Assembly: GCF_000003815.2 (NCBI RefSeq)
Contig: NC_049995.1
Span: 2,304,994 to 2,368,993 of the forward strand
DNA from: Branchiostoma floridae
Taxonomy: Eukaryota > Chordata > Leptocardii > Amphioxiformes > Branchiostomatidae
Reading direction: 5' to 3'
Length of the DNA: 64,000 nucleotides
Below the pieces are notes generated by a model that was not told the DNA's origin, ran no database searches, and worked only from the letters and a program-made list of their open reading frames with translations. Position numbers and translations under genes: made by a program. Below, in pieces: positions 4,289-31,461 of the stretch (within the stretch, counting starts at the first letter, position 1; every line of letters begins with the position of its first letter).

Positions 4289-4380
4289 GCGTGAAAGGTT
4301 GGTCAGAATAAAACTTGTCTAAGCTCAGTGCTAAGTACAAGGAGTCGTGGCAGATGCAGTAAGAACAGAGGCTAAATACA
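4289..4380 (+). pseudogene. Decayed fragment of SF3B6 last exon (unit A)
   Basis: The plus strand here aligns by eye with the last coding exon of SF3B6 (29459-29560, minus). Shared blocks include AAGCTCA, GGAGTCG, ATGCAGTAAGAACAGAGGCT (CGCAGCAAGAACGGAGGCT in the gene) and the AAATA around the stop. It carries substitutions and small indels and cannot encode the intact tail. It abuts the 3' flank of lectin A tail to tail, the same arrangement as lectin D and the real SF3B6. Confidence 0.75.
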
Positions 4381-5401
4381 TTTAGAACGAGATAATGTCC
4401 ATGTCAACTGTTTATTTTACAAAGGGTGGTGTTACAAAAGACAGCTGTCCTCTTGTAGTCTTATTCATTAACAAAGACTGGATTTGCACAATCGTAATTT
4501 TTAAGTGAGTTGTCCTTTCTGTTACGTGTTAGACACTATAACAGTATTTGTTCCATAATAATGTAGCCTAGAGCTGGTTACAACAAATACAGGTTGACAT
4601 ATAACTGGTTACAACAAATAACATGGCAGACGGCGCTTAAGCTTCTATCACTTATAAATCTCCAGCACACCACATTACAAACTCAAAATAATAATCTCCA
4701 ATCGCTTGTATTTAGTTTTCATGCAACAGATATTTTTGTTGACTATCACTCAGAGTCCAGGTCACAGTACTAGTAAACCTTACCAATGTTTTTATGTTAT
4801 TAGTATATCCTTTCCCTTGAATACATATTTTACTAGATCAACTCCTACAAAGTTAAACATTCTTGACAGCATATAAAACTGCATGTTGCAGTCCCATCGA
4901 CCAGAATATGTGAAAGACAAAGTTTTCCTGTTTTCAATATTCCAAAAGTTACAATCATTGAACTGAGACCCGTTGGCCTGAATCAAAGTACATACTATTC
5001 ATTGTACTTAAATGTTCTGGGAAAAAAACACACAGAAAAGATAGCAAAAATTGAAGTAAACTTATCATCACAAGTTCTAGTGTTTTCTTGCTAATTGCTT
5101 ACATTTGTGTGGTAGAATATAATCTAAAAAAGTAATCTTAAAACTTCAGTTCCCAATACTGTCCTGTTTTCTATGTTCAGAAAATAACAATCGTAGAATT
5201 AAGAACCGTTGGCCTGAATCAAAGTACAAACTATTCATTGTTCTTAAATGTTATAAAAAAAACTTTTAAAAAATGAAGAAAACTCATCTTCAAAAGCTCT
5301 GGTGGCTCTTGCCAATTGCTTACATTTGTGTGTTAGAATATAATCTAACAAAATCAAAATGAAAATCGTCTCAAAGTTGCGGTGAGAGCTCGGCCTGTCG
5401 T
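4381..5401 (-). other. 3' flank / probable 3' UTR of lectin A
   Basis: This stretch has no gene of its own but is recognisably repeated after genes B (about 10673-11523), C (about 22240-23030) and D (about 27590-28600). It is likely 3' UTR and flank. On the minus strand an AATAAA lies at 4411-4416, and its counterpart in B is at 10701-10706; these are candidate polyadenylation signals. Confidence 0.5.
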
Positions 5402-8400
5402 CTAGGTACGTCCTGTAAATCAATGAACGAAGGAAGATGAGAAACATTTTCTACAATGAACTACAACTCTAAAGAGGATATTCAACGGTGTTAACATATA
5501 GACATACCATATATATATATCATATCATATGTATATATCTTTTTTTTAAACAATGTCCATAATGGTGCTTTTGAGTAAAGTACCTGGAGCCACCTGGCAG
5601 AAGATGTATTCGATGTGTCGGCATTTCTCGTCATACCAATGCCCCCGACCGGAATGGCTGGAGAAAGCAACGCAGTCTTCATCCCCGTCTTTGTTATCTG
5701 GTTGTTCCACAGTCCACGAGTTGTACCTTCCAAGCGCAGACCCGTCCACCCACTCAAATGTTCCCTCCATGCGCTGATCGTGCAGGCCGATCCAGTAAAA
5801 GCTCCCTTTGTTTCGCTCTAAGGTGACTAGGAACCTGTTGGTCTCAGCGTCTCGGGGCATGGCGAGGGTACCGCCATCTTTGCGACAGGTCTCGGTCGCT
5901 TCGCTGAAGGTCCCGACGAATTTATATTCATTGAACGCTTTGTAGCAGGTTTCACGCCACATGGTATAACCTTCGGGGCAGGATGCTAGAAAAGAAAATG
6001 ATTTAAACTGATACAGCAAAGTTAGCGAGAGTACAAGAACTGAATCACACACACACAATCCAGGACTTTCCAGCTAAACATTCGTAGAATACAGTTTGGC
6101 CCTTTCAGGGTGAAGAAATACAATCAAGTATTATCAAAAAGTACATGTAGTAAGAACATATACTAGTATTGCGCAAAAGGTCAGAGGTGTGCTTAGAAAC
6201 TATTATCAATGCCTCACCTCGTTCAGCTAGTCCAGGGCAAAACGAGTTTCCCGGCAGACCAGGCGGCCCTGGAGGTCCGGGTCGCCCAAAAGACACAGGA
6301 CCAGCCGGCCCTATCGGTCCCGTTTTTCCCAGAGGTCCAGCCGGCCCCACGGCTCCCTTTTCTCCAGAAGGACCAGTCGGTCCCATGGCTCCCTTTTCTC
6401 CAGGAGGACCAGCCGGCCCCATGGCTCCCTTTTCTCCCGGAGGTCCAGGAGGTCCCATGGCTCCCTTTTCTCCTGGAGGTCCAGGAGGCCCGACAGACAC
6501 AGGACCAGCCGGCCCCATGGCTCCTTTGTCTCCTGGAGGACCAGGAGGCCCAACAGACACAGGACCAGCCGGCCCCATGGCTCCCTTTTCTCCTGGAGGT
6601 CCAGGAGGTCCGACAGACACAGGACCAGCCGGCCCCATGGCTCCCTTTTCTTCTGGAGGTCCAGGAGGCCCGACAGACGCAGGACCAGCCGGCCCCATGG
6701 CGCCCTTTTCTCCTGGAGGTCCAGGAGGCCCAACAGACACAGGACCAGCCGGTCCCTTTTCTCCTGGAGGTCCAGGAGGCCCAACAGACACAGGACCAGC
6801 CGGCCCCATGGCTCCCTTTTCTCCTGGAGGTCCAGGAGGTCCGACAGACACAGGACCATTAGGTCCCATTTCTCCCATTTTTCCCTGAGGTCCACGAGAC
6901 CCTGATAGAAACGAGAGTCAGATTGCAATTTGTGTCGGAATCCATGGTTTTTACAATCACGCAACATTTATTCAACCATAATGAGTAACGTCATAGTACA
7001 AACAAGGAACATAATATCTAAGAACGATATTTGAAACATGAGGAACGTCATTGTATCAGTAATCCAAGGACTCGATGTAAGGTAGAAAATTGACATTTCA
7101 TTCATGATATTAGTAATATGTACTTACATTCCAGATCAGCCAGGGCAGGAAACTTCCGTTCTGTCCGGTTGATCAGCTTGTCAATTTGTTTAAACACTTT
7201 GGCCATATCCTCAGAATGTCTGATGACTCTAACTGTATTGAAAATGTTATGGAAAGATGCAAAACTGGCGGTCGACGTACCAAACTTATGTAAGTTCTTC
7301 TCACGTAATAGTTACTTTGCTGTTTACTTTGATTAATTCATGATCAGAAATAGTGACCATAGCAGGTCCAGAATCCGAGTTTCAAAATCGAAATGCAACC
7401 GAAACAAGTATAACCTTCTGATAATGGTGCTCAAAGCAGAGGTTTGACGTCGGTTGTTTTTTGACGTGTTTTAGAAAACGAGACAAAATAGAAGGTCTAA
7501 AAAAACTACTAAAACACTTTTAAAAAAACAGCGAATACCGAACCTCTGCTTGGAGAGTAAAACGGGCCTACTGTACCTGTCAAATATGGCAGCATGATGG
7601 CGACTACCAGGCAGAACACAAACCCAGCGGTTTGCAACAGCTTTTTGAGGAGGCTGCGACATTGTGTCTTGCTGTTAGCGTCCGTATCGTACTCTACATC
7701 TGTAGAAATATCAGATACTGTAAATGAATTTAAGTTCGCAGTAAGACTGCCTCGTGAAAACCGCGAACATAAAACCACCGCGAACATTTCTGTATTTACA
7801 GTAAATCAAAACTTTTTGAAAATGTATGAAGATTTGGGTTTGTTCGATTGTATATTCATTATTGCGGGACACATATCATTATTGGGACACATATCTGATT
7901 GCTATTCTTAAGAACGATACTGCCGTACTTATGAATATAGGGTGGAAGTCTTGAAGTCACTAGCATATACCTGACTAGTGTATACATATGTATACTCTTC
8001 AATCGGAAAGAAATGAAGGAACCAAGTTGAACAACGATATTATGAAATGACGTCACAGTAAATCACTGATAGTGCTCACTGACAACCTGGCCAAAAATGA
8101 AGTACTTGCTATAGGTCATGTATGTATTAAATTGCAGGGCAATGGGACAGCAAAAGAGTATCTTGAATTCCACAATCCGTTTCTCGTTTTACCTGCTCTA
8201 GAGACGTACATCGTGTTGGGTATGTTCGCAGCGGCGTCCGCAATGGTCCTCCAATCAGTCTGGGGCTGCTGCTGGGGCGTGGTGCCTGGAAGAAATATTG
8301 GTATTGGTATGATTTCGAATTCACAGATGATATGATCTTAGGAAGCTTCTTAAAGTGGTCCCATGTATCAGAAAAACTGCAAATTTATTGAAATGCCATT

Positions 8401-9250
8401 CTTCCAAATTCACATGTGAAATAATCTGAAAACGTTTCTAAAACTGGTCCCATGTTAATTTATGTATCAGAAAAACTGCAAATATACTGAAATGCCATTC
8501 TCCCAAATTCACATGTGAAATAATCTGAAGAAATCTTCTAAAAGTGGTCCCATGTTATAATTCATGTATCCGAAAAACTGCAAATATATCGAAATGTTTT
8601 TGTTTATCAGAAGTCCTCTGTCTGACGCGATGTTCTCTGATCCGAACCCCTTACAAAACAGTAAAAATGGCGGGGGCAAGCTTTTAGAAAAGTCCATGTA
8701 CTCGAAGTTGAAGTCGAAACGAAAAGAATTTCCCTCATCTCTTTCCTGCTAATTGTCGGGACGTTTTGAGTATTTTTGTTTTTTTAGATTGGACTCATCA
8801 GTTATGAAATTTGCAACATAACTCAGACTCAGTCGGTCATTTTGTCGTCACTGCAGAATGTACCACCAACAAACTGGCGTTTAAACTGTACTAGTGTTTG
8901 TGATGTGAGTACATTAGATATGGAAATTGTCGACCAAGATAAACATAAAACTAACCAACAAACAACCAAAGATAAAAAAACTCTTGACGGATGGTTTTAG
9001 CTACCCGCCTTTTAAAAGCCATGGGACTGACTGACTGAATAACTTTTACGACAGTCGTTGTAAAGAATATTTGCTTACAGTTAACGTTTGTTAGAATCGG
9101 TCTTTAAACATAGAAACATGATCAATCAAGAATAATGATATGGCGAAATTACATGCCTTTTGTTGAAAAAAGAAGAACAAGGCCAAAAAAAACCAGTAGA
9201 GACTTGTTACCTCCAGTGTTGGCTTGGGACTGCTGATTCCCTTCCGACAT
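5402..9250 (-). CDS. Lectin A: type II membrane collagenous C-type lectin
   Basis: Predicted 485-residue cell-surface lectin. Exons (plus coordinates, read from high to low): 9211-9250, 8193-8285, 7577-7699, 7128-7232, 6218-6901, 5584-5985, 5402-5412. All junctions are phase 1 with GT/AG borders. The start is the only ATG matching the shared N-terminus [13 protein letters not shown] of the paralogues. In order: a Gln-rich cytoplasmic tail, a membrane span at about residues 66-85 ([15 protein letters not shown]), a neck of about 35 residues with coiled-coil potential, a collagen-like stretch at about 121-348 with eight GP(V/A)S(V/F)G breaks and a Gly-to-Glu change in one repeat, a cysteine near its end (GNSFC), and a long-form C-type lectin domain at about 349-482. 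The domain has WIGL, QPD (galactose-type position) and WYD in place of WND, with six cysteines. Plan resembles collectin-12. Sugar and calcium binding are inferred from motifs. Reading through the last donor would give a slightly different C-terminus. Confidence 0.88.
7718..7801. mobile_element. 84-bp TA-flanked MITE in lectin A intron 2
   Basis: Ends CTGTAAAT and ATTTACAG are inverted repeats flanked by TA on both sides. The interior is GTTCGCGG/CCGCGAAC-like palindromic sequence. Related copies lie at 19393-19630 (cut by a gap) and 26481-26657. It sits about 18 bp from the exon 3 acceptor of lectin A. Confidence 0.7.
8351..8600. repeat. Three tandem ~95-bp units in lectin A intron 1
   Basis: The block GTGGTCCCATG ... 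CAGAAAAACTGCAAAT ... CACATGTGAAATAATCTGAA recurs at about 8355, 8444 and 8543. Single related copies occur in the equivalent introns of B (about 14215-14300 and 15730-15850) and C. Confidence 0.7.
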
Positions 9251-9254
9251 GATG

Positions 9255-9600
9255 GCGATTTTCAGCTGGGCAGCAAAAACACGTCCTACCCCGGTTAAGA
9301 CGCTGGTCAATTTAAGCCTGTTACGAGAGCCGAAAAATTATGTGTCTTTGATTAACCGAAGTTACAGATCACAAAAGATTAAAGTTTACTGTCTTCAATC
9401 GTTAAACTTTGAACAGTTGAGACATTTCATATAGAAACTTAATAATCCCGCTTGTCCATTTAAGCCTCTCACGAGAGCCGATCAAATTTGTATCTTTGAT
9501 CAACCAAAGATTAAAGTTTACTACAAAAGATTAAAGTTTACAGTTTTTGATTGTCTTCATACGCTACCCTTTGAACAATGGAGCAACAGTTTACATGATT
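9255..9600 (-). promoter_or_regulatory. Upstream repeat region of lectin A
   Basis: Two to three units of the ~140-bp lectin upstream repeat lie directly upstream of the lectin A start. The short sequence TTTGATCAACC, similar to a TCF/LEF site (CTTTGATC), occurs in the units. A promoter role is inferred only from position and from conservation at all four genes; no TATA box is evident. Confidence 0.45.
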
Positions 9601-9797
9601 TAATATTGAAATATGAAGAACGTTATCCTTGGTTAAATGTATTAAAAACTGTCTTCATCGTCAATAGTGTGACAACAGTTTTAGAGAAAGTTGTACATCA
9701 TGTTTTTCTTGAAGCTAGCTGGTGCAAGTCATATGACCAGTGACAGTCTCAAAGCAAAAATTAACAATTGGAGAGGATAGAAAATACACATCTATCT

Positions 9798-9936
9798 ATC
9801 TATCTCACACACACACAAACATAGATATATACACACACATATATAACACACACATACACACACACTCACACACATACACACATATATACATATATATCTA
9901 ACATATACACACGCACACACACAAAAACACATACAT

Positions 9937-10012
<76 letters not shown>
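9798..10012. repeat. Compound CA/TA microsatellite
   Basis: Long runs of (CA)n and (TA)n, ending in a pure TA tract of about 55 bp at 9955-10010. No gene is visible between here and the SF3B6 fragment at 10568. Confidence 0.95.
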
Positions 10013-10014
<2 letters not shown>

Positions 10015-10567
10015 CGCATTTCATTTAACAATTCTAGTAAATCAATAATCCATTCTTACCCTTATACTAATATATTCTATTTTGTTCTGTCGTTTGCTTG
10101 TAGGCATTTCGTTGATTAGTCTCTCCTTGGAAATACTTTCTAGTATCGGAACACCCCCCTGATATTTAGTCAGCAGTTGTGATACATCGGAGAGCGAATC
10201 TTCTAGAGATCTCAGCACAGTTTTGCCGATTTATGAATGTGTTGTTGGGTTACCTTTTTCTTCACACAAATTGTGAATTTTACTTCAGTTTTGTTTAGTT
10301 ACTAGAGAAATATGGGATAGATTATAAGCATCGTGAGATGGATCAAAGCGTATAATGACTATCATTGTGGTACTGTTGTGCATGTAAAATGTTAAAAAGG
10401 TGCATTGCAATGATTTCTTTTTCAAAACATGCTTATGTCATATTCTTCTATTAATTCGATTATTTGATCCATTTGCAACTTTACTCTTTGAGTTTTTTTA
10501 TTGTCAGCAGTGAACCATGTGTTGGCATTTTTCTCACGAAGTCTTTTGATTCGATTGCCCCTTGCAA

Positions 10568-10672
10568 GCATTTAAAAGGTAGGCCGCAATAAAACAGAAT
10601 GAGACTTGTCTAAGCTCAGTGTCAACTATAAGGAGTCGGGGAGATGCAGTAAGAACAGAGGCTAAATAAATT
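10568..10672 (+). pseudogene. Decayed copy of SF3B6 last exon plus intron edge (unit B)
   Basis: The plus strand aligns by eye over the whole of SF3B6 exon 4. It begins GCATTTAA-AAGGT (GCATTTAAGAAGGT in the gene), continues through AAGCTCA and GGAGTCGGG, and ends GAGGCTAAATAA where the gene has GAGGCTAAATAG. The CCCCTT just before it resembles the real intron 3 end (CCCCTTCTTATAG), which argues for genomic duplication rather than a retrocopy. Indels break the frame. It sits tail to tail with lectin B. Confidence 0.82.
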
Positions 10673-11523
10673 TAGAACCACAAACTGTCCATGTCAACTG
10701 TTTATTTTGCAAAGGGTGGTACATGTATTACAAACTCAAAATAATAATATCCAATCGTCTGTTTATAGTTATCATGAACAAATATTTTTGTTGACTATCA
10801 CTCAAAGTCCCGGTCACAGTAAACCTTACCAATGTTTTTGTTACTAGTATATCCTTTTCCTAGAATACATATTTTACAAGATCAACTCATACAAAGTTAA
10901 TAGTTAACAGCATATAAAACTGCATGTTGCAATCCCATCGACCAGATTATGTGACAAACAAAGCTGTCCTGTTTTCTATGTTTAGAAAATAGGAATCAAT
11001 AAATTTAGAACCGTTTGTCTGAATTTAAAGTACAAACTCTTCATTGTTCTTAAATGTTCTGGAAAAAAACACAGCAAAGATAGTAAAAATTGAAGTAAAC
11101 TCATCATCACAAGTTCTGGTGTTTTCTTGCCAATTGCATACATTTGTGTGTTAGAATATAATCCAAAAAACTGATAATTTTAATAATAAGAACTATTGGC
11201 CTGAATCAAAGTACATACTATTCGTTGTTCTTAAATGGGACTGACGTTGTTCTTAAATCTGAACAAATTTTAAAAACATTAAATGAAAAACAGAAAACAT
11301 AAAAAAAGTTGAAGAAAAACCATCTTCAGAAGTGGTAAAGTGACATACTGATCACGTTGCACAAGAAACTCGCAAATTGCTAACATTCGTATGTTAGAAT
11401 CTAATGTAACAAACTGATATTTTAAAACTTCAGTTTCCTAGTCTTTCTGTTGAGTTTTCTAAGAAACAAAAGAAGACGGTCTGCAATTCGTCTCATAGTT
11501 GCGGTGAGAGCTCAGTCTGTCGT

Positions 11524-14500
11524 CTAGGTACGTCCTGTAAATCAAAGAAAGCAAGAAAATAAGAAAAATTTTCTACAATTGAAATTTATAGAGGATATTC
11601 AACTTCACCGTTTAGACATATCATATATATCATATCATGTATATATATTATTTAGAAAGATGTCGATAAATGGTGCTTTTGAGTGAAGTACCTGAAGCCA
11701 CCTGGCAGAAGATGTATTCTCTGTTGTTGCATTTCAGATCATACCAATGTCCCCAACCGGAATAGCTGGAGAAAGCAACGCAGTTTTCATCCCCGTCTTT
11801 GTTATCTGGGTTTCCCCCAGTCCACGAGTTGTACCTTCCAAGCACAGACCCGTCCACCCACTCAAATAGTCCCTCCGAGCGCTGATCGTGCAGGCCGATC
11901 CAGTAAAAGCTCCCTTTGTTTCGCTCTAAGGAGACCAGGAACTTGTTAGTCTCAGCGTCTCGGGGCATGGCGAGGGTACCGCCATCTCTGCGACAGGTCT
12001 CGGTCGCTTCGTTGAAGGTCCCGCCGGATTTATATTCGTTGAACGCTTTATAGCAGGTTTCACGCCACTTGGTATAACCTTCGGGGCAGGACGCTAGAAA
12101 AAAAAATTGGCATTTAAAGGATGTAAGATTATAATCAAGTAAGTGGTAAGAAAATATATTGCGCAAAAGGTCAGAGGTTTGCTTAGAAACTGTTATGGAT
12201 GCCTCACCTCGTTCAGCTGGTCCTGGACACTGAAACGAGTTTCCTGGCAGACCAGGCGGCCCTGGAGGTCCGGGTGGCCCAAAAGACACAGGGCCAGCCG
12301 GTCCCTTTTCTCCTGGAGGACCAGGAGGCCCGACAGACGCAGGACCAGCAGGCCCCATGGCTCCCTTTTCTCCTGGAGGACCAGGAGGCCCGAGAGACGC
12401 AGGACCAGCAGGCCCCATGGCGCCCTTTTCTCCTGGAGGACCAGGAGGCCCGAGAGACGCAGGACCAGCCGGCCCCATGGCTCCCTTTTCTCCTGGAGGT
12501 CCAGGAGGCCCAACAGACACAGGACCAGCCGGCCCCATGGCTCCCTTTTCTCCTGGAGGTCCAGGAGGCCCGACAGACACAGGACCAGCCGGCCCCATGG
12601 CTCCCTTTTCTCCTGGAGGTCCAGCTGGCCCTATGCCTCCCTTTTCTCCCGGAGGTCCAGCTGGCCCCGTGGGCCCTTTTTCTCCAGGAGGGCCAGTTAG
12701 TCCCGTGAGCCCAGGAGGGCCAGCCGGGCCCATGGATCCAGTATGGTCCCGAGGTCGAAGAGACTGGCAAAAGGTCCAAGTGACTGATAAAAACGAGAAT
12801 AAGATTGAGTAACAGCAAAGTACGAAAGTTCACAGTGAGCATATTTAGGAAAACGAACGATTTGTTGAAAACGAGGTATTTCTGGTACAGTAGAAGCCAG
12901 TTCATTGCACAACGGATTAATGGACACGTCTGTTTACTGCACAGAATCCCCAAATCTCAAACTAGCCTGGTATCCAGCCATATTATAGCTCCCGAGTCTC
13001 GTCTGTCTCACATATTTATGGAGAGGGCAGAAGAGACTCGGGAGCTATAATATGGCTGGATACCAAACTAATCCCAAACAAGTGTTGTCCAGTTGGATAA
13101 CTTCGCATCATTGCAACAGCCGGATAATTGCATAAAATTGGCAAATAGGCCCGTCAATTAAGCGACTTCTACTGTATCAGTAAACAAGGTTTAGGAATTG
13201 GCTATCCATTATATAAAGACATTACGTACTTACCTTCCAGATCAGTTTGTGGATGTAACCGCAGTTCCGTCCGGAGCTTGGCAATCTCTTTTGACAGTTT
13301 GGCCATATCCTCAGAATTACTGATGACTTTAACTGTATTGAAAATGCAATGGAGGTGGTAAGATGTGTAACTAGAGGTCGACTTGCCCAAACTTATGTAA
13401 TTTATTCCCAAGAATTAGTTACTTTGCTGGTTACTTTGATTGATTCGTAAATCGTGACCAAAGCTGGCCCAGATTCCAAAATAGGAAAAACAGAATCTCT
13501 GCTGCATTACCTTGTCCTTGGAAATCAAGATATAGCCTCTTAATCTATACAATTTAACTACATAATATACTTGTTACCAAACATATACATGCTATAACCT
13601 TCTTGACAAAAGTAATGGTACTCAAAGAAAATTACAAATTACTATGATGAATACTCCGACAAGAGCTTTAATCTAATAAAACTATTGAAGTCACCACTTC
13701 TAATTTGAAGGAAGGATAAAAGGGCCTGATCTCTTAGCAAAGTTTTGGCTCAGATTATTTTTTGACGTCTTAGAAAACGGGACAAAATGGAAAGCCCGAC
13801 AAAAAGAACGACTGAAAAACGTCAAATAACAACCGAAGCCGAATCTCTGCTTGGAGAGTAGAACGGGCCTACTGTACCTGTCAGAAATGACAGCGTGATG
13901 GCGACTACCAGGCAGAACACAAACCCAGCGGTGTGCAACAGCTTTTTGAGGAGGTTGCGGAGTTCTGTCTTGCAGTTACCGTCCGTAATGGAATCGTACG
14001 TTGCATCTGTGGTAACATCAGATAAATTATGCCTTTTCGAAAATGTTTGAAGATTGGGGTTTGTTCAGTCGTACATTCACTGTTGACTATGAATCAACAT
14101 TACTTAGTTATTACCTTAGGCCATGGGATAAATGAATGTCATGTCTTCGTAGTTCTTAAAGATAAAAGAAGTCTGGTGTCCAGGGTAGTGTGGTCAAATG
14201 TCAGTATATGTATCAGAGTATCAGACAAACTGTAAATATATCGAAATGCCTTTTTTTCTTCAAATTTACGGGTAAATTAATCTGAAAAAGCTTGTGTGGT
14301 CCTACCTACCATGAGAGCCAGTCAGGACCGGGTAGCTAGCGAGTTTTGCTCGGGGAGCCAAGGCAGTCAGCCCGCCTATCTCACATAAGCGCTCCGGGGA
14401 GTTTAAGCCTGAAGGAGTTATCCCTACCCTTGGATAAGGGCGGTTGGACCTCATCAGGCTTAAACTCCCCGGGGCGCTAATAGGAGATCGGGCGGGCCTG

Positions 14501-16477
14501 ACTGTCTTGGGCCACCGAATAAACTGTCCTAGCTGTCCGATCCTGGCTGGCTCCCAGGGTATGTCCTACCATGAAAACCAGACTTTTACCCAGGGCCGAC
14601 AGAGAATTTGTTCGGCAGCCAGGGGCAGATTTTCACCAGGCCGCTTAATAAGGCCCCCCCGGTCCGGGCTGCTGAATTCTCACCCTGGACGCCTGCCCCG
14701 ATTTCACGAGCAAGAACATTTTATCGTTGGTCTTGGAAATCCCTCCTGCCACTCACATCCAGCTCAGGGCCCTCATAAGCTGATGCGCCCCTCTACCTCT
14801 CCCGGGTGAGGATACTGTGCCACCGTNNNNNNNNNNNNNNNNNNNNNNNNNNNNNNNNNNNNNNNNNNNNNNNNNNNNNNNNNNNNNNNNNNNNNNNNNN
14901 NNNNNNNNNNNNNNNNNNNNNNNNNNTCAGCCCGCCGATCTCCTATAAGCACTCGAGGGAGTCTAAGCCCGAAGGAGGCCCACCTGCCCTCTTGTCCTGG
15001 AAAGGGTAGCAATAACTCCTTCAGGCTTAAACTCCCCGGAGCGCTAATATGAGATCGGCGGCTGACTGCCTTGGATCCCCGAACAAAACTCGCTAGCTAC
15101 CCGGTCCTGGGCTGGCCCCCAGGGTAACAAATTGTCTCCTGCATGACTGCTCCCCGTTGTGCTTCTCTAATAAGGTCCTCGGGAAAACCTGCCTTGGCTG
15201 CTGGACAAATTCTCTGACGGTCCTGGCTGTAAGTGTGGGTTCCTGGAAACCAGCTCGAAGAAGCTTCACAAAGAAGAGTTTACTGATCCCCTGCCTAACG
15301 CGCGCCCTCCCTCAACTATACACCGGTCCCACTACCACCTGGCCCCACTTACGCCGGCCCCCGACTATCGCTTGCTTCTCGATTAGCGTGGCCAATTTTA
15401 CCCCTCTGCCGGCTTAAGTCCTTCCCCAGCTTATGTTACTGTCTTGCCACGAAGGAATCTGCTTGGAGATTACTTCTCGATAGTTGAGGCAAGTTGGTTC
15501 GCCGGGCCGGCGGGTGTTGGGCGGCGGGTATTCCGTGCGCGTGTGTGGTGGGGATCGGTAAACATTGCGCTCCTCGTAGGAGTCTGCGTTTTCCCAGGGT
15601 GGGTAGGACCAAAGAAACTTTTCCAGATTATTTTACCCGTGAATTTTATTATTGCTTCCCGATAAATTCTCTGCCGCCATTGGCCCAGTAGTAAAAGTCT
15701 GGTTTTCATGTGAGTGTTGTCAGACAAACAACAAATTTATCAAAAGGCCATTCTTTCAAATTCACACTTAGAATAATCCGAAAAAGCTTCTAAAAGTGAT
15801 CACATGTCAATTCATGCATCAGACAAAATGCAAATTTATCGATATGTTTGTTTTGGAACTATAGTTCATCTTAATTCGTAGGGCAGCCTTTATCCGTTCT
15901 TTTTAAGAACAATGTATTTAGGGCACATTAATCCGACAGATTGTGGTTTCAAACTGCAATATTTTGAAAATATTGCATTTTAAAACTGCCATCCATCAGC
16001 TTGATATCCTTTAATACCATATTTAGCAACACAACGCATATAGGTTACCCCACGGATAAAGGTGAACTAACGTTATATCTTTTTGAAATCAGACTTGGTC
16101 ACAAAATTCACAGCATAACTGAATGAAATGGAATAAACCAACAGACCGACGACTAAAATGTACCAGTGTGGGGACATATTGGAGATGGAAATTGTCGGTC
16201 AAAATGAACATAAAACTAGCTAACAAACAATCAAAGATAAACAAAACTCTTGACGGACAGTTTTAGCAACCCCCCTTTAACAGTCTCTGTAAAGAATATT
16301 TGCTTACCATGTGAAAACATGATCATTTAACCATCAAACCACCGTATAGGAATTCAAATTTGCTGATCATGACATTTAAAGAATAAAGAAGAACAACGCG
16401 AAAAAAAAACAAAAAAAAAAACATAAAAACTTGTTACCTCCAGTGTTGGCTTGGGACTGCTGATTCCCTTCCGACAT
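11524..16477 (-). CDS. Lectin B: collagenous C-type lectin lacking exon 2
   Basis: Predicted 418 residues. Exons (high to low): 16438-16477, 13878-14006, 13234-13332, 12208-12783, 11692-12093, 11524-11534. No homologue of exon 2 (the TTPQQQ exon) is visible between exon 1 and exon 3. Since all exons are phase 1, joining exon 1 to exon 3 keeps the frame. Order: short cytoplasmic tail, membrane span ([15 protein letters not shown]) at about 37-56, neck with a Leu/Lys heptad-like pattern ([19 protein letters not shown]), collagen-like region at about 90-281 with six GP(V/A)S(V/L/F)G breaks and a cysteine at its end, then the lectin domain at about 282-415. The sugar motif position reads NPD rather than QPD; WYD is kept. 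Intron 1 holds a 1.4-kb TIR element with an assembly gap, so a missed exon 2 in that gap cannot be fully excluded, although the element explains the gap. Confidence 0.84.
12888..13174. mobile_element. TA-flanked pogo/mariner-like MITE with a nested MITE
   Basis: Ends CAGTAGAAGCC and GCGACTTCTACTG are inverted repeats, each flanked by TA. A second copy is at 21938-22104. This copy is interrupted by the hairpin element at 12968-13065. It lies in intron 4 of lectin B. Confidence 0.7.
12968..13065. mobile_element. ~98-bp palindromic MITE
   Basis: TGGTATCCAGCC ... GGCTGGATACCA with arms continuing through TATTATAGCTCCCGAGTCTC and its complement, so nearly the entire element folds back on itself. 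Relatives are at 58305-58398 and, degraded, about 38593-38696. Confidence 0.8.
14311..15710. mobile_element. 1.4-kb foldback TIR element in lectin B intron 1
   Basis: The left end CATGAGAGCCAG, an internal copy CATGAAAACCAG at about 14570 and the right end CTGGTTTTCATG form inverted repeats; the pair at 14570/15710 extends through ACTTTTAC and a GCMGAGAATTT block. Inside are two foldbacks of about 200 bp (14328-14554 and 14925-15120, cut by the N gap 14827-14926) with arms such as GTTTAAGCCTGAAGGAG and its complement. The G+C-rich composition differs from the AT-rich intron. No transposase frame is visible. Confidence 0.65.
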
Positions 16478-16479
16478 GA

Positions 16480-17363: not shown

Positions 17364-17560
17364 ATATGTGTATGTGTGTGTGTGTGTGTATGTGTATGTA
17401 TATACATACACATANNNNNNNNNNNNNNNNNNNNNNNNNNNNNNNNNNNNNNNNNNNNNNNNNNNNNNNNNNNNNNNNNNNNNNNNNNNNNNNNNNNNNN
17501 NNNNNNNNNNNNNNACGCACACACAAATATGTATAACATATGATATACCATTTACCAAGG
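17281..17560. repeat. CA/TA/TG microsatellite at the B/C symmetry axis
   Basis: (CA)n, then (TA)n, then (TG)n with an assembly gap at 17415-17514. The tract is itself nearly palindromic and lies midway between the inverted lectin genes B and C. Confidence 0.85.
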
Positions 17561-21000: not shown

Positions 21001-22237
21001 NNNNNNNNNNNNNNNNNNNNNNNNNNNNNNNNNNNNNNNNNNNNNNNNNNNNNNNNNNNNNNNNNNNNNNNNNNNNNNNNNNNNNNNNNNNNNNNNNNNN
21101 NNNNNNNNNNNNNNNNNNNNNNNNNNNNNNNNNNNNNNNNNNNNNNNNNNNNNNNNNNNNNNNNNNNNNNNNNNNNNNNNNNNNNNNNNNNNNNNNNNNN
21201 NNNNNNNNNNNNNNNNNNNNNNNNNNNNNNNNNNNNNNNNNNNNNNNNNNNNNNNNNNNNNNNNNNNNNNNNNNNNNNNNNTGCACTTTCTGAGCCTCTG
21301 ACCTTTTGCGCAATATATTGTCTTACTTCTTACATGATTGTAATCCTACGACCTTTTCTAGCGTCCTGCCCCGAAGGTTATACCATGTGGCGTGAAACCT
21401 GCTACAAAGCGTTCAACGAATATAAATTCATGGTGTCGACCCGGTTCAGCGAAGCGACCGAGACCTGTCGCAAAGATGGCGGTACCCTCGCCATGCCCCG
21501 AGACGCTGAGACTAACAAGTTCCTAGTCTCCTTGGAGCGAAACAAAGGGAGCTTTTACTGGATCGGCCTGCACGATCAGCGCTCGGAGGGAAAGTTTGAG
21601 TGGGTGGACGGGTCTGCGCTTGGAAAGTACAGCTCGTGGACTGTGGAACAACCAGACAGCAGATACGGGGATGAAGACTGCGTTGCTTTCTCCAGCCATT
21701 CCGGTCGGGGGCATTGGTATGCCTTGAAATGCCACTACAGATCATACATCTTCTGCCAGGTGGCTCCAGGTACTTCACTCAAAAGGCACCATTTATCTAG
21801 TCTCCAAGCAGNNNNNNNNNNNNNNNNNNNNNNNNNNNNNNNNNNNNNNNNNNNNNNNNNNNNNNNNNNNNNNNNNNNNNNNNNNNNNNNNNNNNNNNNN
21901 NNNNNNNNNNNTTGTTCTAAATGATATATATGTAATACAGTAGAAGCCGCTTTATTGCACAGCCTATTTGCCAGCTTATTTTGTGCCATTATCCGGCTGG
22001 CGCGATAATGCGAAGTTATCTGAGGTGGACCGCACTGGTTTGGGATTCCGTGAAGCTAAAAGAAGTGTGCGTTAATCTGTTGTGCAATTAATTGGCTTCT
22101 ACTGTATGGGATTATATAAAATATGTCTAAAGGATAACACAGCTGAATATATATTCTCTTTACAATCTAATTATAGAAAGTTATTCTCATTTTCCTTCAT
22201 TCATTGATTTACAGGACGTATCTACGAGCTCTCATGA
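18002..22237 (+). CDS. Lectin C: collagenous C-type lectin (interrupted by assembly gaps)
   Basis: Visible exons: 18002-18041, 18954-19046, 20581-20691, 20885 to at least 20918, 21362-21769, 22215-22237. Exon 3 (membrane span) must lie in the 578-bp gap at 19631-20208, and most of the collagen exon in the gap at 20919-21281, so total length is unknown. N-terminus [13 protein letters not shown] and the exon 2 peptide match A and D. The neck exon carries a longer Lys/Leu-rich helix (MAKENAKLSREIDKLRTEL). The lectin domain has WIGL, QPD and six cysteines, but the WND-equivalent reads WYA where A, B and D have WYD: a calcium-ligand aspartate appears lost. The C-terminus reads GRIYELS, then TGA. 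The domain is closest by eye to that of lectin A. Confidence 0.82.
19393..19630. mobile_element. CTGTAAAT-type MITE, truncated by gap
   Basis: Starts TA-CTGTAAATGCAG and contains several GTTCGCGGT / ACCGCGAAC motifs like those in 7718-7801 and 26481-26657. The right end is lost in the N run. It lies in intron 2 of lectin C. Confidence 0.6.
20247..20423. repeat. 177-bp near-perfect inverted repeat in lectin C intron 3
   Basis: Arms of about 78 bp (20247-20324 and 20346-20423) with a loop of about 21 bp. Pairing is nearly complete (for example AGTTACAACAATTTTCATCA against its complement). It lies 40 bp after the assembly gap at 19631-20208. Confidence 0.85.
21938..22104. mobile_element. TA-flanked pogo/mariner-like MITE, uninterrupted copy
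   Basis: TA-CAGTAGAAGCC ... GGCTTCTACTG-TA, 167 bp, in intron 6 of lectin C. Same family as 12888-13174. Confidence 0.75.
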
Positions 22238-23069
22238 GACGATTTGCAGATCGCGCGCTGCCGTCTTCTGATTTTTCTTAGAAAACAGAAAGAATAGGAA
22301 ACTGAAGTTTTAAATTATTAGTCTGTTAAATGATATTCTAATACACATGTTAGCAATTGACGAGTTTCGTGTAAAATGTGATTATGTCACTCACACACTA
22401 GAGCTTGTGAGTTTTCTTCAAATTTTTCGATGTTTTTTTTTCTGTTTTTCATTTGATTTTTTTTCTTACATTTGCTCAGATGTTCCATTTAAGAACAATG
22501 AATAGTATGTAATTTAATTAAGGCTAATGGTTGTAAATTTAATGATGGCTATTTTCTGAATATATATATATATATATATATAAACAGGACAGCTTTGCTT
22601 GTCACATAACCTGTTCAATGGGATTGCAAAATGCAGTTTTATGTCCTGTCAAATATATTTAACTTTGTATGAGTTGATCTTGTAAAACTTTTATTCCAGG
22701 GAAATGCCAGACCCTGGATCTATAAAAAGATATACTAGTAACAGAAAACATTAGTAAGGTTTACTATGGTCTGGACTTGAGTGACAGTCGACAAAAAATA
22801 GTTGTGGCATGAGAGCTAAAAACAGACGATTGGACATTCAATGATTATTTTGAGCTTTACAATGTGGTTTGCTGGAGATTTAGAAGTGATAGAGTAGAAG
22901 CTTAAGCGCCGTCTGCCATGTTATTTGTTTTAACCAGTTATTTGTCAACCTGTATTTGTTGTGACCAGCTCTAGGCTATACTATTATAGAACAAATACTG
23001 TTGTAGTGTCTAACAGGAAGAACAACTCACTTTTATTTTCGAGTGTGTAACTCAAGTCTCAAGTTGTTA

Positions 23070-23402
23070 ATTAATGAATGAAGACCTTTATTGCACATTT
23101 TTGCCACACCGGGCTAAGTGCAGGTCACAACAAGACATGTTGAAAAGATACAGTTCACAGATACAAAATGAGACTATTGCTGGATAAATTCAACTTCTCC
23201 TCGCTTTTCTGTTATAGTGGAGATAAAAGAGCAGATATGTTTTATAATAATAAGGGACTGGACAAATTTGGCCACTATAGACAGGTGGCCTCTGTATAGA
23301 GGTGGCAACTTGTAGATAAAATACCCAAGGGACCGACAAAAAGTGGCCACTATGGACAGGTGGCCCCTCTGTAGAGGTGGCCCCTAATACAGGTTTGACT
23401 GT
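23070..23402 (-). mobile_element. LINE 3' tail fragment and a MITE fragment
   Basis: On the minus strand, about 23170-23070 ends GCAATAAAGGTCTTCATTCA followed by short ATT-rich units, a form typical of CR1/L2-like LINE tails. Next to it, 23260-23402 contains repeated 'gtggcc(a/c)c' and 'caggtggcc' motifs and ends CAGGTTTGACTG-TA, like a pogo-type TIR. Both lie between lectin C and lectin D. Confidence 0.4.
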
Positions 23403-23449
23403 ATATAGTGTCTTAAATAATCCTCTAGTCTTCTTTACGTTTCGGTAGC

Positions 23450-23860
23450 AAACTTTAATCTTTTGTAGTAAACTTTGATCTTTGGCTGATACAAATTGGT
23501 TTGGCTCTCGTGACAGGAGTAAATGGAGAGGCGGAGTTATTAAGTTTTTACATGAATATAATATGTCTCCACTGTTCAAAGTGTGACGATTGAAGACAAT
23601 CAAATACTGTAAGCTTTCATCTTTTCTGGTCCGTAAGTTGCCTGAGAAAAGATGCATATTGAATCGGCTCTCGTGACAGACTTAATTGGACCGGCGGAGT
23701 TATTACGTTTCTATGTGATACGTCTCGACGGTTCAAAGTGTTGAAGATTGAAGAAAGTAAACTTAAATCTTCTGTAGTCTGTAACTTCGGTTGATCAAAG
23801 ATACATATTGAACCGGCTATCGTGAAAGGCTTAAATAGACGAACGGTGTAGGACGTGTTT
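23450..23860 (+). promoter_or_regulatory. Upstream repeat region of lectin D
   Basis: About three inverted units of the lectin upstream repeat (GGCTCTCGTGACAG at 23502 and 23671; CGTGAAAGG near 23822) lead directly into the lectin D start region. Promoter role inferred. Confidence 0.45.
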
Positions 23861-23893
23861 CTGCTGTCCAGTCTCAAGCTGAAAATCGCCATC

Positions 23894-26800
23894 ATGTCGG
23901 AAGAGGATCAGCAATCCCAAGCCAACACTGGAGGTAACAAGTTTTTATTGTTTCTCTGCCTGATTCTTATTTTTCGACAAAAGACAGAAATTTGCCCACG
24001 CCACTTTGTAAGGGTTTCTGCTCACAGTGTTATCGCGTCAGACATATGCTGTGAATTTCCTGACTAAGTCTGATCTTAAAAAGATATATACTCAAAACGT
24101 CCCGAAAATCAGCAGAAAAAGAGGTGGACAAATATATTCGTTGGGTTCATTACATGGACTTTTCTAAAACCTTGCCTCCGCAATTTTGACACTTTTTGAA
24201 GGGTCACGTATCAGGGGTCATCGCGTCAGACAGATGACTTCTGAAAATAAACATTTCGATAAATTTGCAGTTTGTCTGATACCTGAATTGACCTGGGACA
24301 ACTTTGAGAAACTTCTTCAGATTATTTTACATGTACCATGTTTTTAAATATCAACATTTTCCCCAGGCACCACGCCCCAGCAGCAGTCCCAGACTTATTG
24401 GAGGTCCCTTGCGGACGCCGCTGCGAACATACCCAACACGATGTACGTCTCCAGAGCAGGTAAAATATTTTGATAGAAACGGCTTTCTGAGCCATGTTTG
24501 GGACCGTTTTCTCACCGCAAAAGCGCCACCTACATCGGCTACATGAGAAGCAGAACTCTAGTTAGAAGCTCTGACGAAGGTGTCTGAGAGACATCGAAAC
24601 GTAAGCAATGTAAGTACTTTCTGGTTGTGTAATAAGAATTCTACTTCATCCTATATTCTACCAACCTGATGAAACTTTTTTCGGGAGTCTAAAGCAGTTG
24701 TCACTAAGACGTTGTGACGTTACTTGAAATGATCTGATTCCTAATTAGTTCCTTCATCTATTATTACTGATGGAAGAGCCTGTGCACGATTTGTTACAAT
24801 AGCGCCACATATATTCATCAGAAAAGCGGTATCGTAATGAAGAATAGTAAGCAAATGCCCTAATTATAGAAGTATTGATTCAAAGCTTACAGTGAATATA
24901 GAGAAACACAACTTCAAAGAGTCTTCAAACATTTTGGAAAATGTTTCATTTATCTGACATCAACACAGGTGCAACGTACGATACGGGCGCTAACAACAAG
25001 ATTAAGACGAAGTATCGCAGCCTCCTCAAAAATCCGTTGCACACCGCTGGGTTTGTGTTCTGCCTGGTAGTCGCCATCATGCTGCCATATTTGACAGGTA
25101 CAGTAGGCCCGTTTTACTCTCGAAACAGAGGTTGGGTTTTGGCTTTTTCATGACGCGTTGCGGGCGTTTTCGCCGGGTTCTCCATTTTGTCCCGTTTTCT
25201 AAAACGTCAAAAAAACAGCCGAGGTCGAACCTTTGCTTTTTAGAGAGCAGGTCCTTTTAATTTATTTCTTCAAATTAGACATGATGACTTCATCAGGCTT
25301 GTCAGTTTAAAGCTCAGCTTGTCGGAGTATTAATTATAATAATCTGTCATTTTCGTTGAGTACCATTACTTTCGCCAAGAAGGTTATAGCATGTATATGT
25401 TTGGTACCGTGTAAATGTAGTTAATTATATAACTTAAGTGGCTACAAGTCGATTAATATGAAGCTATAGGTTGTTAGGTACTCTGAAATCGAATAATTGC
25501 CCCCCCCCCCCCCCCCGTACGGGTTTCTAAGGGACTGCAGCAGAAATTCTGTTTTTCCTATTTTGGAACCTGGACCAGTTATGGTTACCAATTTCGAATC
25601 AATCAAAGGGATAGGCAAAGTAACTAGTTCTCGGAAATAATGTACATGCGTTTGCGCAATTCGACCTTTACTTATACGCATGTTATCACCTCAATTGCAT
25701 CTTCAACACAGTTAAAGTCATCAGTCTGTCTGAGGATATGGCCAAACTGTCAAAAGAGATTGCCAAGCTCCGGACAGGACTGCGGTTTCCTGAACAAACT
25801 GATCTGGAAGGTAAGTACATAATGCCCTTGTATATAATGGATTGCCGATTTCTACCTAAGCCCTTGTTTATTGATACCAGAAAATACCTCATTTTCAACA
25901 ATTAGTTCGTAACTGGTAGCGAGTTCGGCTCGGAATCTAGAGGTCCTGAGTTAGATCCCCGCCGTGCCCCCGACGTTGTGCCGTTGGGGTTGTGCACTTT
26001 ACACAACCTTCCTCACAAGTTCACCCAGGTGTAAAAATGGGTACCTAACTTCGGTCGGGGAGGTAAAGGACTACCTTTACCTTCTGTCTGTACCGTGTAT
26101 GTGGCACTGCTAATATATAAGTTACGTATACAAGACTTTAGTGCAGTGCCACATTGTCCTCGTCTGTCCAAAAGCAAATAGTTGGTTTTTTTCTTCAAAA
26201 TGCTCACCATGTATGTACTTTTGTGTAACTCACGATGGTAGAAAAAATGTGGCGTGGTTGTAAAACCATAGATTCGTTTTATCAGAGTCTCTTGGACCTC
26301 TGAACCAAACTGGAACCATGGGGCCAGCTGGTCATCCTAGAGAAGGGGGAGTCATGGGATCGGGACCGACTGGCCCTGTGTCTGTCGGACCCCCAGGGGC
26401 AAAGGGAGCTACTGGACTAACTGAACGAGGTGAGGCATCAATAATAGTTTCTAAGCAAACTTCTGACCTTTTGCACAATACTGTAAATGTATTTAAGTTC
26501 GCGGGGATTTGATTTCGCGGTAGCACTATACACTGCGGTGGTTTTAAGTTCGCGGTAGCACCATGCACTGTAGTCTCTTACTGCCATGGAAAAATGTTCA
26601 CGGTGGTTTTAAGTTCGCGGTGACATTAAACCACCGCAAAAGTTTCTGTATCTACAGTATATTTTCTTACTAGCTGTACTTACTTGATTGTAATTCTTCA
26701 ACCTCGGGAAAGGGCCAAACTGTATTGTAGAAAAAGTTTTGAGTGGGAAGTCCAGGAATGTGTGATTCCGTTCTTGTACTCTTGTTGACCCTGCTGTACC

Positions 26801-27585
26801 GCTAGTTCACCATTATCCGTAGGGTAACCTTTATCCGTCCTTTTTAAGAACAATGTATTAAGGTATATCAAGTCGACAGATGGTGGTTTGAAACTATCTT
26901 GAAAATAGTACAATTTGAAACTACCGTTCATCGACTTCTGAATATCCCTGGCCTTGTTTAGCAGTGACAACGGATATAGGTTTAAGGCGGATAAAGGTTA
27001 AGTAACGTTATCAATCTAAATCTGTTTTTCTAGTGTCGTGTCCAGAAGGTTATACAAAGTGGCGCGGAACCTGCTACAAATTGTTCAACGAAGTCCCAAG
27101 GACCTTCAGCGATGCGGGTGAGACCTGTCGCAAAGATGGCGGCACCCTCGCCATGCCCCGAGACGCTTGGATCAACGGCTTCCTCGCCACCTTGTCTAAC
27201 CGCAACAACTATTACTGGATAGGTCTGCACGATCCGCGCACGGAGGGACAGTGGGAGTGGGTGGACGGGTCTAAGCTTAGAAAGTACAGCTCGTGGTCCG
27301 AGGGACAACCAGATAGCAAATACGGGAACGAAGATTGCGTTGTTTACAACAGTAATGTCCCTGTAGCCGGGTATTGGTATGACCTGGAATGCCACAACAA
27401 AGAATACTTCTTCTGCCAGGTGGCTCCAGGTACTTCACTCTAAAGCACCATAAATACTAGTATATAACGTTACATATTTTAATATTCTCTTTAGAATATT
27501 ATTGCCATCGCAGAACACATTTTCCCTCGTTCTTTAACTTACAGGACGTACTAGACGACAGGCTGAGCTCTCACCGCAATTATGA
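23894..27585 (+). CDS. Lectin D: C-type lectin with a reduced collagen region
   Basis: Predicted 313 residues. Exons: 23894-23933, 24367-24459, 24969-25097, 25712-25810, 26286-26429, 27034-27429, 27545-27585. N-terminus [13 protein letters not shown]; membrane span [15 protein letters not shown] at about 68-87; neck at 88-120; then a collagen-like segment of only about 48 residues with a single GPVSVG break and several non-Gly interruptions, against 192-228 residues in B and A. The lectin domain (169-300) keeps WIGL, QPD, WYD and six cysteines, but is the most diverged (NEVPRTF, NRNNYYW). The last exon lacks one base present in A and B (GTACTAG rather than GTACCTAG), which removes their early stop and gives a longer tail, [12 protein letters not shown]. 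It is tail to tail with SF3B6. Confidence 0.87.
24571..24600 (+). ncRNA. Hammerhead-ribozyme-like core (retroelement remnant)
   Basis: CTGACGA is followed by a 7-bp stem (GGTGTCT paired with AGACATC, loop GAG) and then GAAAC, the arrangement of the conserved core of hammerhead ribozymes. Penelope-like elements are known to carry such motifs, and the surrounding sequence looks like a fragment of one. I could not resolve stem III or the cleavage site by eye. It lies in intron 2 of lectin D. Confidence 0.4.
25917..26100 (+). mobile_element. SINE-like element (second family)
   Basis: Contains a box B-like GAGTTAGATCCCC and a body 'ttgtgcactttacacaacctt', 'cctcac', 'cccaggtgtaaaaatgggtacct'. A related body occurs at 34325-34460. 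It lies in intron 4 of lectin D. Confidence 0.5.
26481..26657. mobile_element. CTGTAAAT-type MITE in lectin D intron 5
   Basis: TA-CTGTAAAT ... ATCTACAG-TA, 177 bp, with internal GTTCGCGG repeats. Starts about 50 bp after the collagen exon donor. Confidence 0.7.
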
Positions 27586-28330: not shown

Positions 28331-28599
28331 GTTGTAATGTTGTGTACTTGAGATTTAGAAGTGATAAAGTAGACGCGCTATCTACCCTGTTGAACAAAAA
28401 CTGCATATTTGTTGTAACCAGCTCTAGGCTACTGATATTATGAAACAAATACTGTTGAAATCCAACACAAAGCACAACTCGCCTTTTTGATAAAGCAACT
28501 CCAGTCTTTGCTAACGATTGGGTGGAGGGACAGCTGTCTTTTGTAACACCACCCTTTGCAAATTATGAATTATACACGTGAATTTAAATTCCATGCTAA

Positions 28600-29458
28600 G
28601 CAATATACAATTTCTAGTAATTAGTAGCTCCATTTTGGCAATGTCTACTTGAAAATGATGACAACACTAAAAGAAATGATGCAGCGTTTCAACTAAGAGT
28701 TTGACCAAAATTTATTACGTATCTGGTTCATGTCCTTCTGTTAACTTGTATCTAGAGTTAAGGAATGTAAAGAACCAATGACAATGTACAAAAATCAGAT
28801 TTCTTTTCCTATGGTGACAATACTTTTTGTTGTTAATTTGCTTGGGGTATTTTTGGTCATTGTTCACTGAACACCACTACAGTGAGCACTTCTAAACTTT
28901 TATGATCATCATCATCAGTCACTCCTAAACTTTTATCATACTTAAAAAATGTGTGATACTAGTAGCTTCATGCTTACAAGAAGACTTTGGAGAGTAACAT
29001 GTATCACCAAGTTGATTGTAAAAGTTATGAAGATCAAAGAATATCAGTGTACAAACGTTATGCTTCACTGGATCTTTCATCTACAAACATACAAAAAAGT
29101 GACAGTACTAGTGTACAGTGTGCACCAGTTATCTAAACAACTTCATGCTTTAAAAGCAGCAAAACTAGAGACGAGTTTGGTTGCCCACATGTGATTCAAA
29201 TTTTTTGTTTATAAACATGGTTGTCCGATTCTATGACCAAACAATATTCCTTTTTAACAATGTTACATCATAGTTTTTGAGGGTCATAACTATAAATATG
29301 TTCCGGCAGTACATACGTTTCATGTATGTGTTTTTTTTACATATCTAGGCTCATAAAACATTCTTGGCTTCCTCATCACCAATACCTCGAAAAATATTTA
29401 GAGAAGCTGTCCTGACTAATTTTCAGTCCTGTAGGTACAAAAGTATCTGGTTCTAGTC
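28600..29458. other. Intergenic, lectin D to SF3B6
   Basis: AT-rich sequence with no gene I can support. An 81-codon frame at 28949-29194 has no recognisable domain or splice context. It must contain the 3' ends of the convergent lectin D and SF3B6 transcripts. Confidence 0.5.
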
Positions 29459-31461
29459 CTATTTAGCCTCCGTTCTTGCTGCGTCTCCCCCGACTCCATA
29501 CTTGGCCTTGAGCTTGGAGAGTTCCTCCTCCTTCTTCTTCTGGTCGACCTTCTTAAATGCCTATAAGAAGGGGAACAGAAATGCAGGACTCCATGAGAAA
29601 AAAATGATCACACATTGTATTTACCTGACATTAGGAAAATGAAAATTTACACTCATGTAATTTATTGTAAACAAAAAATGACACGAAATTTATGAAGTAA
29701 ATGGTATATGTACAAACAAAAACATTAAGAAAGTTTGATTTTATTATACTAATTTATAGATGAAATAGAAAGCTGACTTTTTCGTGACGTACATACATAT
29801 ACAGCAACGCATACATCATATTCATAGCAAATACAGTACTGTTGTAAAGGGTGCTATTATAAAATGTACATAATGCTTATAATACAATGCAACTGAAAGA
29901 GTAACCATGGAAGTATAATAAACTGTGAACAACTGTTAGCTGTAACTTTTTCAAAAATTCATGTTTTAAAAGGATTTCAAAATCAAATACAACATTGAAA
30001 ACTCAATATTCAACACATAACAATAGCCAATATTCTTAAAAAATGATGATATAATATGCTTTATTAGAAACAAACTATCCTTGGCGGCAAGCCGGAAATA
30101 TTGAAGAACTGCCTACCCTGTTGGGTTGGTAGTAAAGTACCACCAGATATCTGTTGCACACGTTAAACCCTGAGAGATGGTCGCAGGCATTCTTCGCATC
30201 AAAGATGTCTTCATAGACAACATATGCTGTGCCCTTTGTCTCTGGTGTGTTACCCCTGAAAAAAAATTAAGAGCACGAATATTAGTTGATCCCACATTTA
30301 CTTGACATTATGGCATTGCCATAACTTCTAGAAAGAAATCCATATATACTAAATACAGTTTTGGCAAATTACAATATTAGCACTATTCGATAATCATCAG
30401 TTAGAGTTTGTATATATCCCATAATGCTTTGCTCAAATCTATCCCATAAAGCCTTGCACACTGAGCTGTAACAGAAAACACAAATTGGGTACTAAAAATT
30501 GTAAATATGAACCAAAATGTAAAATATGATTTCTATAAAATGTTCCCGAAAGTACCCTAGTGACAATTATGAGACTTTATGGTCAAGTCATATCTTAATT
30601 CGTCTGCTAAAGAAGTTTTTAGTGTAAAGCGTCATGGAACCACAACACAAAGACGTCAAGAGAATTGCCCCTATATAAAGGCAGCACACCTGTACTCCTT
30701 GGCGTGTTGTATGAAAGGAGAGAAGGTTAGCACTCCCCTTGATAAGGACGGAAGACCCGCTTGCGGGTTTACAACACATATACGGTTAAGGCATTGCCGC
30801 CTACTTCGCGGCATCTAACCAATTTTTTACGGTCGTCACTTTTACACACACATTCAATAAAAAAACTTCGGTACATCTACAAGACCGTCTCTACATGGTG
30901 CTGACCAGGCAAGGGTAATGGACAATTTTTTTATGGATAACCCTTTGATTTAAGCTGAATTTACCGTCCCTGACGCGTTATGTGCACTATGAAAAAGCCA
31001 GAATATTCTTTAGTAGACATTTATGTGGGCTTAAGCCGGAAGAAGAAGAATTTTCGGACAAAGTCAAGGGATCGTTGACTTACATTCGGATCTGTCTGAT
31101 GGCGCCGTACTTGCCGAAGATGTCGTACATCTCCTCTGCTGTGATCTTGTAGGGAAGGTTCCGCACGTAGAGGATTCGGTTCACCTCTGGCGGCAACCGA
31201 ACCTGGGAAAGGGAAGGTGGAATTTTTTTAGAGGAAGGAAAATCATACATGTTTCCAAGCACAACAAGGCCAAGCACCCTATTCGAAAATCGGGATTTAT
31301 ATAAAAATAAGCGATCATAGGACTCATCGAACTAGCAAACCAAAATCAACGATGTACAGACTATAAATAAAACCCTGTTTTGAGCATATTTTGACGAAGA
31401 AGAAGGTTAAATTGGCGTTTTTTCTACTCACATTCGCCTTTCTCGCTGCTTGCATCGCCAT
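29459..31461 (-). CDS. SF3B6: SF3B6, splicing factor 3b subunit 6 (SF3b p14)
   Basis: Nuclear spliceosome protein of the U2 snRNP SF3b complex; the family contacts the pre-mRNA branch adenosine and binds SF3B1. Four exons (high to low): 31432-31461, 31084-31202, 30117-30255, 29459-29560; 129 residues, against 125 in human as I recall. The single RRM is complete: RNP2-like ILYVRNL at about 21-27 and RNP1-like GTAYVVYE at about 57-64. [15 protein letters not shown] and [10 protein letters not shown] are near-identical to the human protein. The Lys/Glu-rich tail ([12 protein letters not shown]) follows. The start ATGGCGATG lies in a good context. An acceptor-like site at 31499-31500 suggests that this exon extends to 31498 and that a 5' UTR exon lies further upstream. 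It is head to head with the TPD52 gene. Confidence 0.96.

Follow-up and report, generated by a model that had tools for sequence, protein, structure and literature searches.

Decayed copies of the last coding exon of SF3B6 adjoin C-type lectin genes in a 64,000-nucleotide stretch of the Branchiostoma floridae genome (the window). They very probably descend from a block that included a lectin and the 3' part of SF3B6, was duplicated as DNA, and had its edge propagated with the lectin units. In the proposed scenario, the block would have extended from upstream of the lectin, through the lectin, into the 3' part of the convergent SF3B6, and its duplication, most likely in tandem, would have created a junction between the upstream end of the block and the inside of SF3B6. 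Unit D, beside the rest of SF3B6, would have kept its whole neighbor, and the other units would have carried a truncated, dead SF3B6 edge behind their lectin. This single edge would have lost the 3'UTR and exon 3, gained a frameshift, and spread as the units multiplied. In the assembly, part of the array (A0, A, and B) would now have the opposite orientation to C and D, and other contigs would have received pieces of it: unit E on C9, and a half unit, F, together with a junction on C5.

SF3B6 and its decayed copies

SF3B6 has four exons on the minus strand (31461-29459): exon 1 (31432-31461), exon 2 (31084-31202), exon 3 (30117-30255), and exon 4 (29459-29560), the last coding exon and the intact parent of the decayed copies, hereafter fossils. 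Once spliced, the reading frame encodes 129 residues; it matches human SF3B6/p14 (E 1.1e-69, residues 1-123) and contains an RRM_1 domain (Pfam). The gene is a single locus in the genome: in a protein search with 17 candidates, the three matches with E ≤ 1e-6 are its own exons 2-4. The adjoining unit, lectin D (23894-27585, plus strand), has a complete spliced frame of 313 residues with a Lectin_C domain (Pfam, E 4.1e-22). The two genes are arranged tail to tail, with the last coding exon of lectin D ending at 27585 and its shared tail extending to about 28569. The stretch 28570-29441 (minus strand; profile and BLAST boundaries at 29442 and 28569) is probably the SF3B6 3'UTR and a spacer, and position 28716 is the sole AATAAA/ATTAAA in the SF3B6 sense from 29460 to 28500. 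This parent stretch is missing from all four fossils described below.

Fossil A (4291-4396, plus strand) corresponds to exon 4 and the first bases of the 3'UTR, and fossil B (10493-10687, plus strand) to about 75 bp of intron 3, exon 4 (approximately 10568-10669), and the start of the 3'UTR. As the sequence-only reading had proposed, they lie tail to tail with lectins A and B, respectively, and align to SF3B6 better than shuffled sequence does: local alignments to the last-exon region score 68 for A (4318-4394) and 91 for B (approximately 10502-10686), compared to maxima of 30 and 33 among 1000 dinucleotide-preserving shuffles of each target. Using the SF3B6 sequence alone as the nhmmer query against the window and 55 fetched loci (297,526 bases, some overlapping; E ≤ 0.1), five distinct places were obtained, namely SF3B6 and four fossils: B (E 4e-16), one on C5 (8e-16), one on C9 (4e-14), and A (1.5e-7). 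The two further fossils thus lie on other contigs, beside lectin E on C9 and beside half of a lectin, F, on C5. The other fetched lectin loci showed no fossil match to SF3B6 at this threshold.

In exon 4, divergence of the fossils amounts to about 22-25%; they have no evident function and look like neutral decay. An AATAAA in the lectin sense is present at 4416 (A) and 10706 (B), just before the antisense SF3B6 exon, and none was found in the tails of lectins C and D. From these motifs, one could picture the dead edge as co-opted in lectins A and B as a candidate 3'-end processing region for copied lectins no longer beside their original neighbor, which we regard as improbable.

The whole genome (513,431,437 bases, 431 contigs) was searched for fossils with three queries; only the best candidates were scored, such that further decayed copies could be missed. 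Among these, the SF3B6 exon returned two places (SF3B6 and C9) and fossil B four, while the C5 fossil returned five (SF3B6, A, B, C9, and C5), with all five of its candidates scored. The failure of the exon query to recover A, B, and C5 shows the sensitivity limit of that search. A spread of the same fragments as a dispersed repeat, which the earlier reading had named as evidence against its proposal, was looked for and not found among the scored candidates. A processed pseudogene, or a dispersed repeat containing SF3B6 sequence by chance, is an explanation of negligible probability: nothing was found in its favor, the four copies returned from 513 Mb each lie beside lectin-unit sequence, and intron 3 is kept and the other exons are absent, where a processed pseudogene would have its introns removed and the other exons joined.

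Intron sequence in the fossils

Intron 3 sequence precedes exon 4 in fossils B, C9, and C5. Fossil A starts at about 4290 inside exon 4, with no intron kept, because a repeat of the lectin 5' flank (3795-4289) is fused to it. The "few intron bases" first noticed in fossil B are indeed intronic, although their extent was underestimated, since about 75 bp of intron 3 are present.

Further upstream in fossil B, the segment 10250-10442 (plus strand) is probably a piece of SF3B6 intron 2, collinear with 30504-30309 of the parent. When a profile built from B and C5 was run over the whole window, it matched, beyond itself and A, 29643-29442 (E 6.6e-27) and 30504-30309 (E 5.7e-5), both in SF3B6 with the expected strand and order; its weakest match, at 28569 (E 0.12), is the start of the lectin D tail. 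Compared to SF3B6 intron 2, the stretch upstream of the fossil has a score that none of 200 shuffles reaches (z 4.6 for B and 8.4 for C5), and the same stretch gives no above-shuffle score against exon 3, intron 3, or the intron 1 region. With intron 2 alone as the nhmmer query, the best match outside SF3B6 falls at the corresponding position on C5 (E 0.022), and none is obtained for B. Exon 3 is missing between the intron 2 and intron 3 parts of fossil B, and neither exon 3 nor exon 2 was found in any fossil by shuffle comparison, profile, or nhmmer. The profile and shuffle scores suggest that part of intron 2 was probably copied, with exon 3 lost afterwards.

The retention of intron sequence supports the copying of the lectin unit as DNA along with the 3' edge of SF3B6, and the joint duplication put forward by the sequence-only reading is upheld.

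Shared changes among the fossils

The alignment of exon 4 comprises 102 columns, 95 of which are covered by at least three fossils. Among the latter, 51 are unchanged, 10 display one change common to all fossils present, and 34 show other patterns. In addition, a 2-bp insertion is common to all four fossils and a 1-bp deletion to all three that cover the site. These shared indels, together with the ten shared substitutions, support a single copying event that was then propagated, rather than repeated copying, as the likely origin of the four fossils. It would be very improbable that each lectin unit was copied independently from the pair of lectin D and SF3B6, taking the edge along every time. 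Such copying would account for every fossil adjoining a lectin tail in the same relative orientation; however, it is at odds with the common insertion, deletion, and substitutions, and with the same 3'UTR missing in all four cases. The fossil tree itself is weak, with support values of 54 for A+B and 36 for E+F.

Third codon positions account for eight of the ten shared changes (p 0.0034 against one third), and the changes that are not common to all fossils are approximately even by codon position (12, 16, and 18, by subtraction). This bias also fits a copy that stayed coding for a time, as would be expected if the whole of SF3B6 had been duplicated with the lectin, remained coding for a while, and then decayed to its last exon. 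The probable intron 2 sequence is in line with such a history. We nevertheless consider it unlikely, as exon 3 or exon 2 is found in no fossil, the frame-breaking indels are shared, and the same third-position pattern is expected if SF3B6 itself changed synonymously after the copy, in which case many of the shared differences may be silent changes of the parent gene. Propagation of one truncated edge is the reading that we retain.

Organization of the lectin array

From left to right, the window contains a head flank (A0), fossil A, lectin A, its head flank, a segment X, fossil B, and lectin B, followed, head to head with lectin B, by lectin C, a repeat, lectin D, and SF3B6. The minus strand carries lectins A and B, and the plus strand C and D. 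The head flank fused to fossil A (3795-4289, minus strand) was recognized by BLAST matches to the head flanks of A-F and is read as what putatively remains of an additional unit, A0. A search of the 30 kb to the left showed no A0 lectin body, with 5,061 N among these bases, 2,659 of which border the window.

Lectin A (5402-9250, minus strand; tblastn with lectin D) has collagen and C-type lectin exons in a type II membrane layout. As in collagen-containing C-type lectins of the type II membrane kind, these lectins show a membrane exon and Gly-X-Y stretches, read from the frames, and a C-type lectin domain, identified in lectin D by the Pfam scan. The collagen-like stretch of lectin D (26286-26429) is much shorter than those of A and B. 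The tail of lectin A (4376-5420, minus strand), consisting of the last exon and 3' flank, is common to B, C, D, and E, and a genome search found tail pieces at these five places only. Lectin B (11519-16480, minus strand; tblastn) contains a 100-N gap, and its exon 2 was not found by tblastn or by blastn of exon 2. The expected place of this exon (14300-15700) holds repeat-like sequence with inverted copies as well as the gap.

Segment X (10020-10250, no strand assigned) separates fossil B from the head flank of unit A, and we infer that it is the upstream end of the duplicated block. The interval 10020-10500 was found only in the window and on C5 in a genome search. At about 10083-10128, more than 40 identical bases are shared by X on C17 and on C5, in surroundings that are about 75% identical.

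Lectin C (18002-22250, plus strand) includes several N runs, and no fossil was detected behind its tail by local alignment, by the profile over the window, or by nhmmer. Homology ends near 23088 and is followed by a repeat; the stretch at the expected place of the fossil (23089-23450) includes repeat sequence, 153 bp of which (23252-23404) are 99.3% identical to a stretch on C5. The stop of homology and the repeat suggest that the fossil of unit C was lost or replaced.

The fossil sits between the head of one unit and the tail of the next, and the order of head flank, X, fossil, and tail is the same between A and B and on C5. This order points to a tandem duplication before any inversion, although D has retained no upstream end of the block that would mark the tandem breakpoint. 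Regarding the inversion claimed by the earlier reading, A and B are indeed inverted relative to D as assembled, but this orientation rests on scaffold joins. Runs of exactly 100 N occur at 14827-14926, inside lectin B, and at 17415-17514, between B and C, so the orientation of A and B relative to C and D depends on scaffolding. The tail-to-tail pairs are, in contrast, secure, since one N-free stretch (1978-14826) holds fossil A with lectin A and fossil B with the lectin B exons up to the membrane exon, and another (21912-47373) holds lectin D with SF3B6.

Copies on contigs C9 and C5

Unit E on C9 runs from the fossil and tail through the lectin-domain, collagen, and partial coil and membrane exons to the head; its exon 2 was looked for without success, and nothing of the unit continues leftward in 39 kb. 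On C5, the order is the 5' part of lectin F, the head flank, X with an inserted element, the fossil, and about 50 bp of the tail start, beyond which there is no further match to lectin-unit sequence. Lectin F extends from the exon 1 side to the collagen, with a 6.4-kb insert in intron 1, and no lectin domain for it was found within about 30 kb. By eye, the insert contains a reverse-transcriptase-like open frame of 509 residues. Another collagen-containing lectin (C5:3976939-3977340), 59% identical to the domain of D, is separated from the F head by about 43 kb on the same strand; it has neither the shared tail nor a fossil.

On both contigs, homology starts directly after the same 60-bp repeat end (93% identical; L009 8959-9018 on C9 and L007 5921-5980 on C5), composed of a hairpin and then CTAG before T. 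In these features, it resembles a Helitron end. A mobile element could accordingly have carried both copies by reading through past its end into the adjoining DNA. This mode of transfer appears improbable, because the same repeat end occurs near two other lectins (L022 and L039) and because, on C5, the lectin resumes past the 6.4-kb insert in intron 1, which implies that the element simply inserted there. As a carrier on C5, it was therefore rejected; on C9, where no leftward continuation was found in 39 kb, it stays a candidate. The 60-bp repeat end was not found in the window.

Segment trees and age of the copies

The history of the lectins differs between segments. In the tail, D is the most distant, with Jukes-Cantor (JC) distances of 0.30-0.34 to the others, which differ mutually by 0.14-0.25, and the tail tree, with its root placed by choice, groups A and B with a support of 100. 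In the lectin-domain tree, rooted with another C5 lectin, D falls outside A, B, C, and E (77). In contrast, A and F are split from B, C, D, and E by the coil exon (99) and come together in the membrane exon as well (72), and yet another topology is obtained for the head. Identity between A and D reaches 94.8% in exon 2. The conflicting trees indicate that the lectins are mosaics, by gene conversion or unequal exchange, and they make the fossil unsafe as an outgroup for dating every step, a use that the sequence-only reading had envisaged.

The fossil branches (0.10-0.15) are close in size to half of the tail distance between D and the others (0.15-0.17), suggesting that little time separated the copying from the spread. 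Rates of 4.65e-9 and 5.89e-9 are available, the second per generation and the first given without a unit in the part of the source used here (PMC12862219). With these rates and assuming one generation a year, the fossil branches would correspond to roughly 17-32 Myr, an age that exchange between A and B could make too young. According to the sections consulted of a study on lancelets, the Florida and Chinese lancelets split about 100-130 Myr ago, and virtually no similarity remains between their introns (PMC4284660). A comparison of these ages leads to a clear prediction: the fossils should be missing in the Chinese lancelet.

Parallels and significance

The closest parallel is the human RCCX module (RP/STK19 - C4 - CYP21 - TNX), a repeated module with the truncated neighboring genes RP2 and TNXA, whose CYP21 copies have 98% coding identity, as far as described in the excerpts used (PMC2364643). 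In both cases, a repeated module is bounded by truncated pseudogene copies of its neighbors, with whole neighbors outside the array. Here, a truncated neighbor copy lies at the module edge and the intact neighbor at the array end, and copying as DNA with introns is reflected by intron 3 in B, C9, and C5, with none kept in A. Copies of the RCCX module are almost the same in sequence, and their number differs from person to person, whereas the fossils of the lectin array show the 22-25% divergence in exon 4 given above; unlike RCCX, the array is partly inverted as assembled and has copies on other contigs.

Lancelet C-type lectin genes undergo rapid species-specific turnover according to the portions seen of the lancelet study (PMC4284660), and the expansion of lancelet immune receptors, C-type lectins included, shares this theme with the present cluster. 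Those portions treat repertoires and do not mention this cluster or neighbor-gene fossils. Likewise, the titles and opening lines of abstracts on amphioxus lectins and segmental duplication, and on B. floridae and SF3B14, do not name this case. The kind of event is well known, and the lectin/SF3B6 case is a clear new example, which also reaches two other chromosomes. A conserved housekeeping exon frozen at the edge of a duplication allows the source unit to be told from its copies and a single origin to be tested, and it offers a neutral clock for an immune-gene cluster with fast turnover, in which ordinary trees are blurred by exchange between copies.

Other repeats were observed in the window. 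At positions 1-1877, a unit of roughly 75 bases recurs in an array interrupted by N gaps, and 2835-3126 and 53338-53619 form an inverted repeat pair, 81% identical, that looks tRNA-derived by eye.
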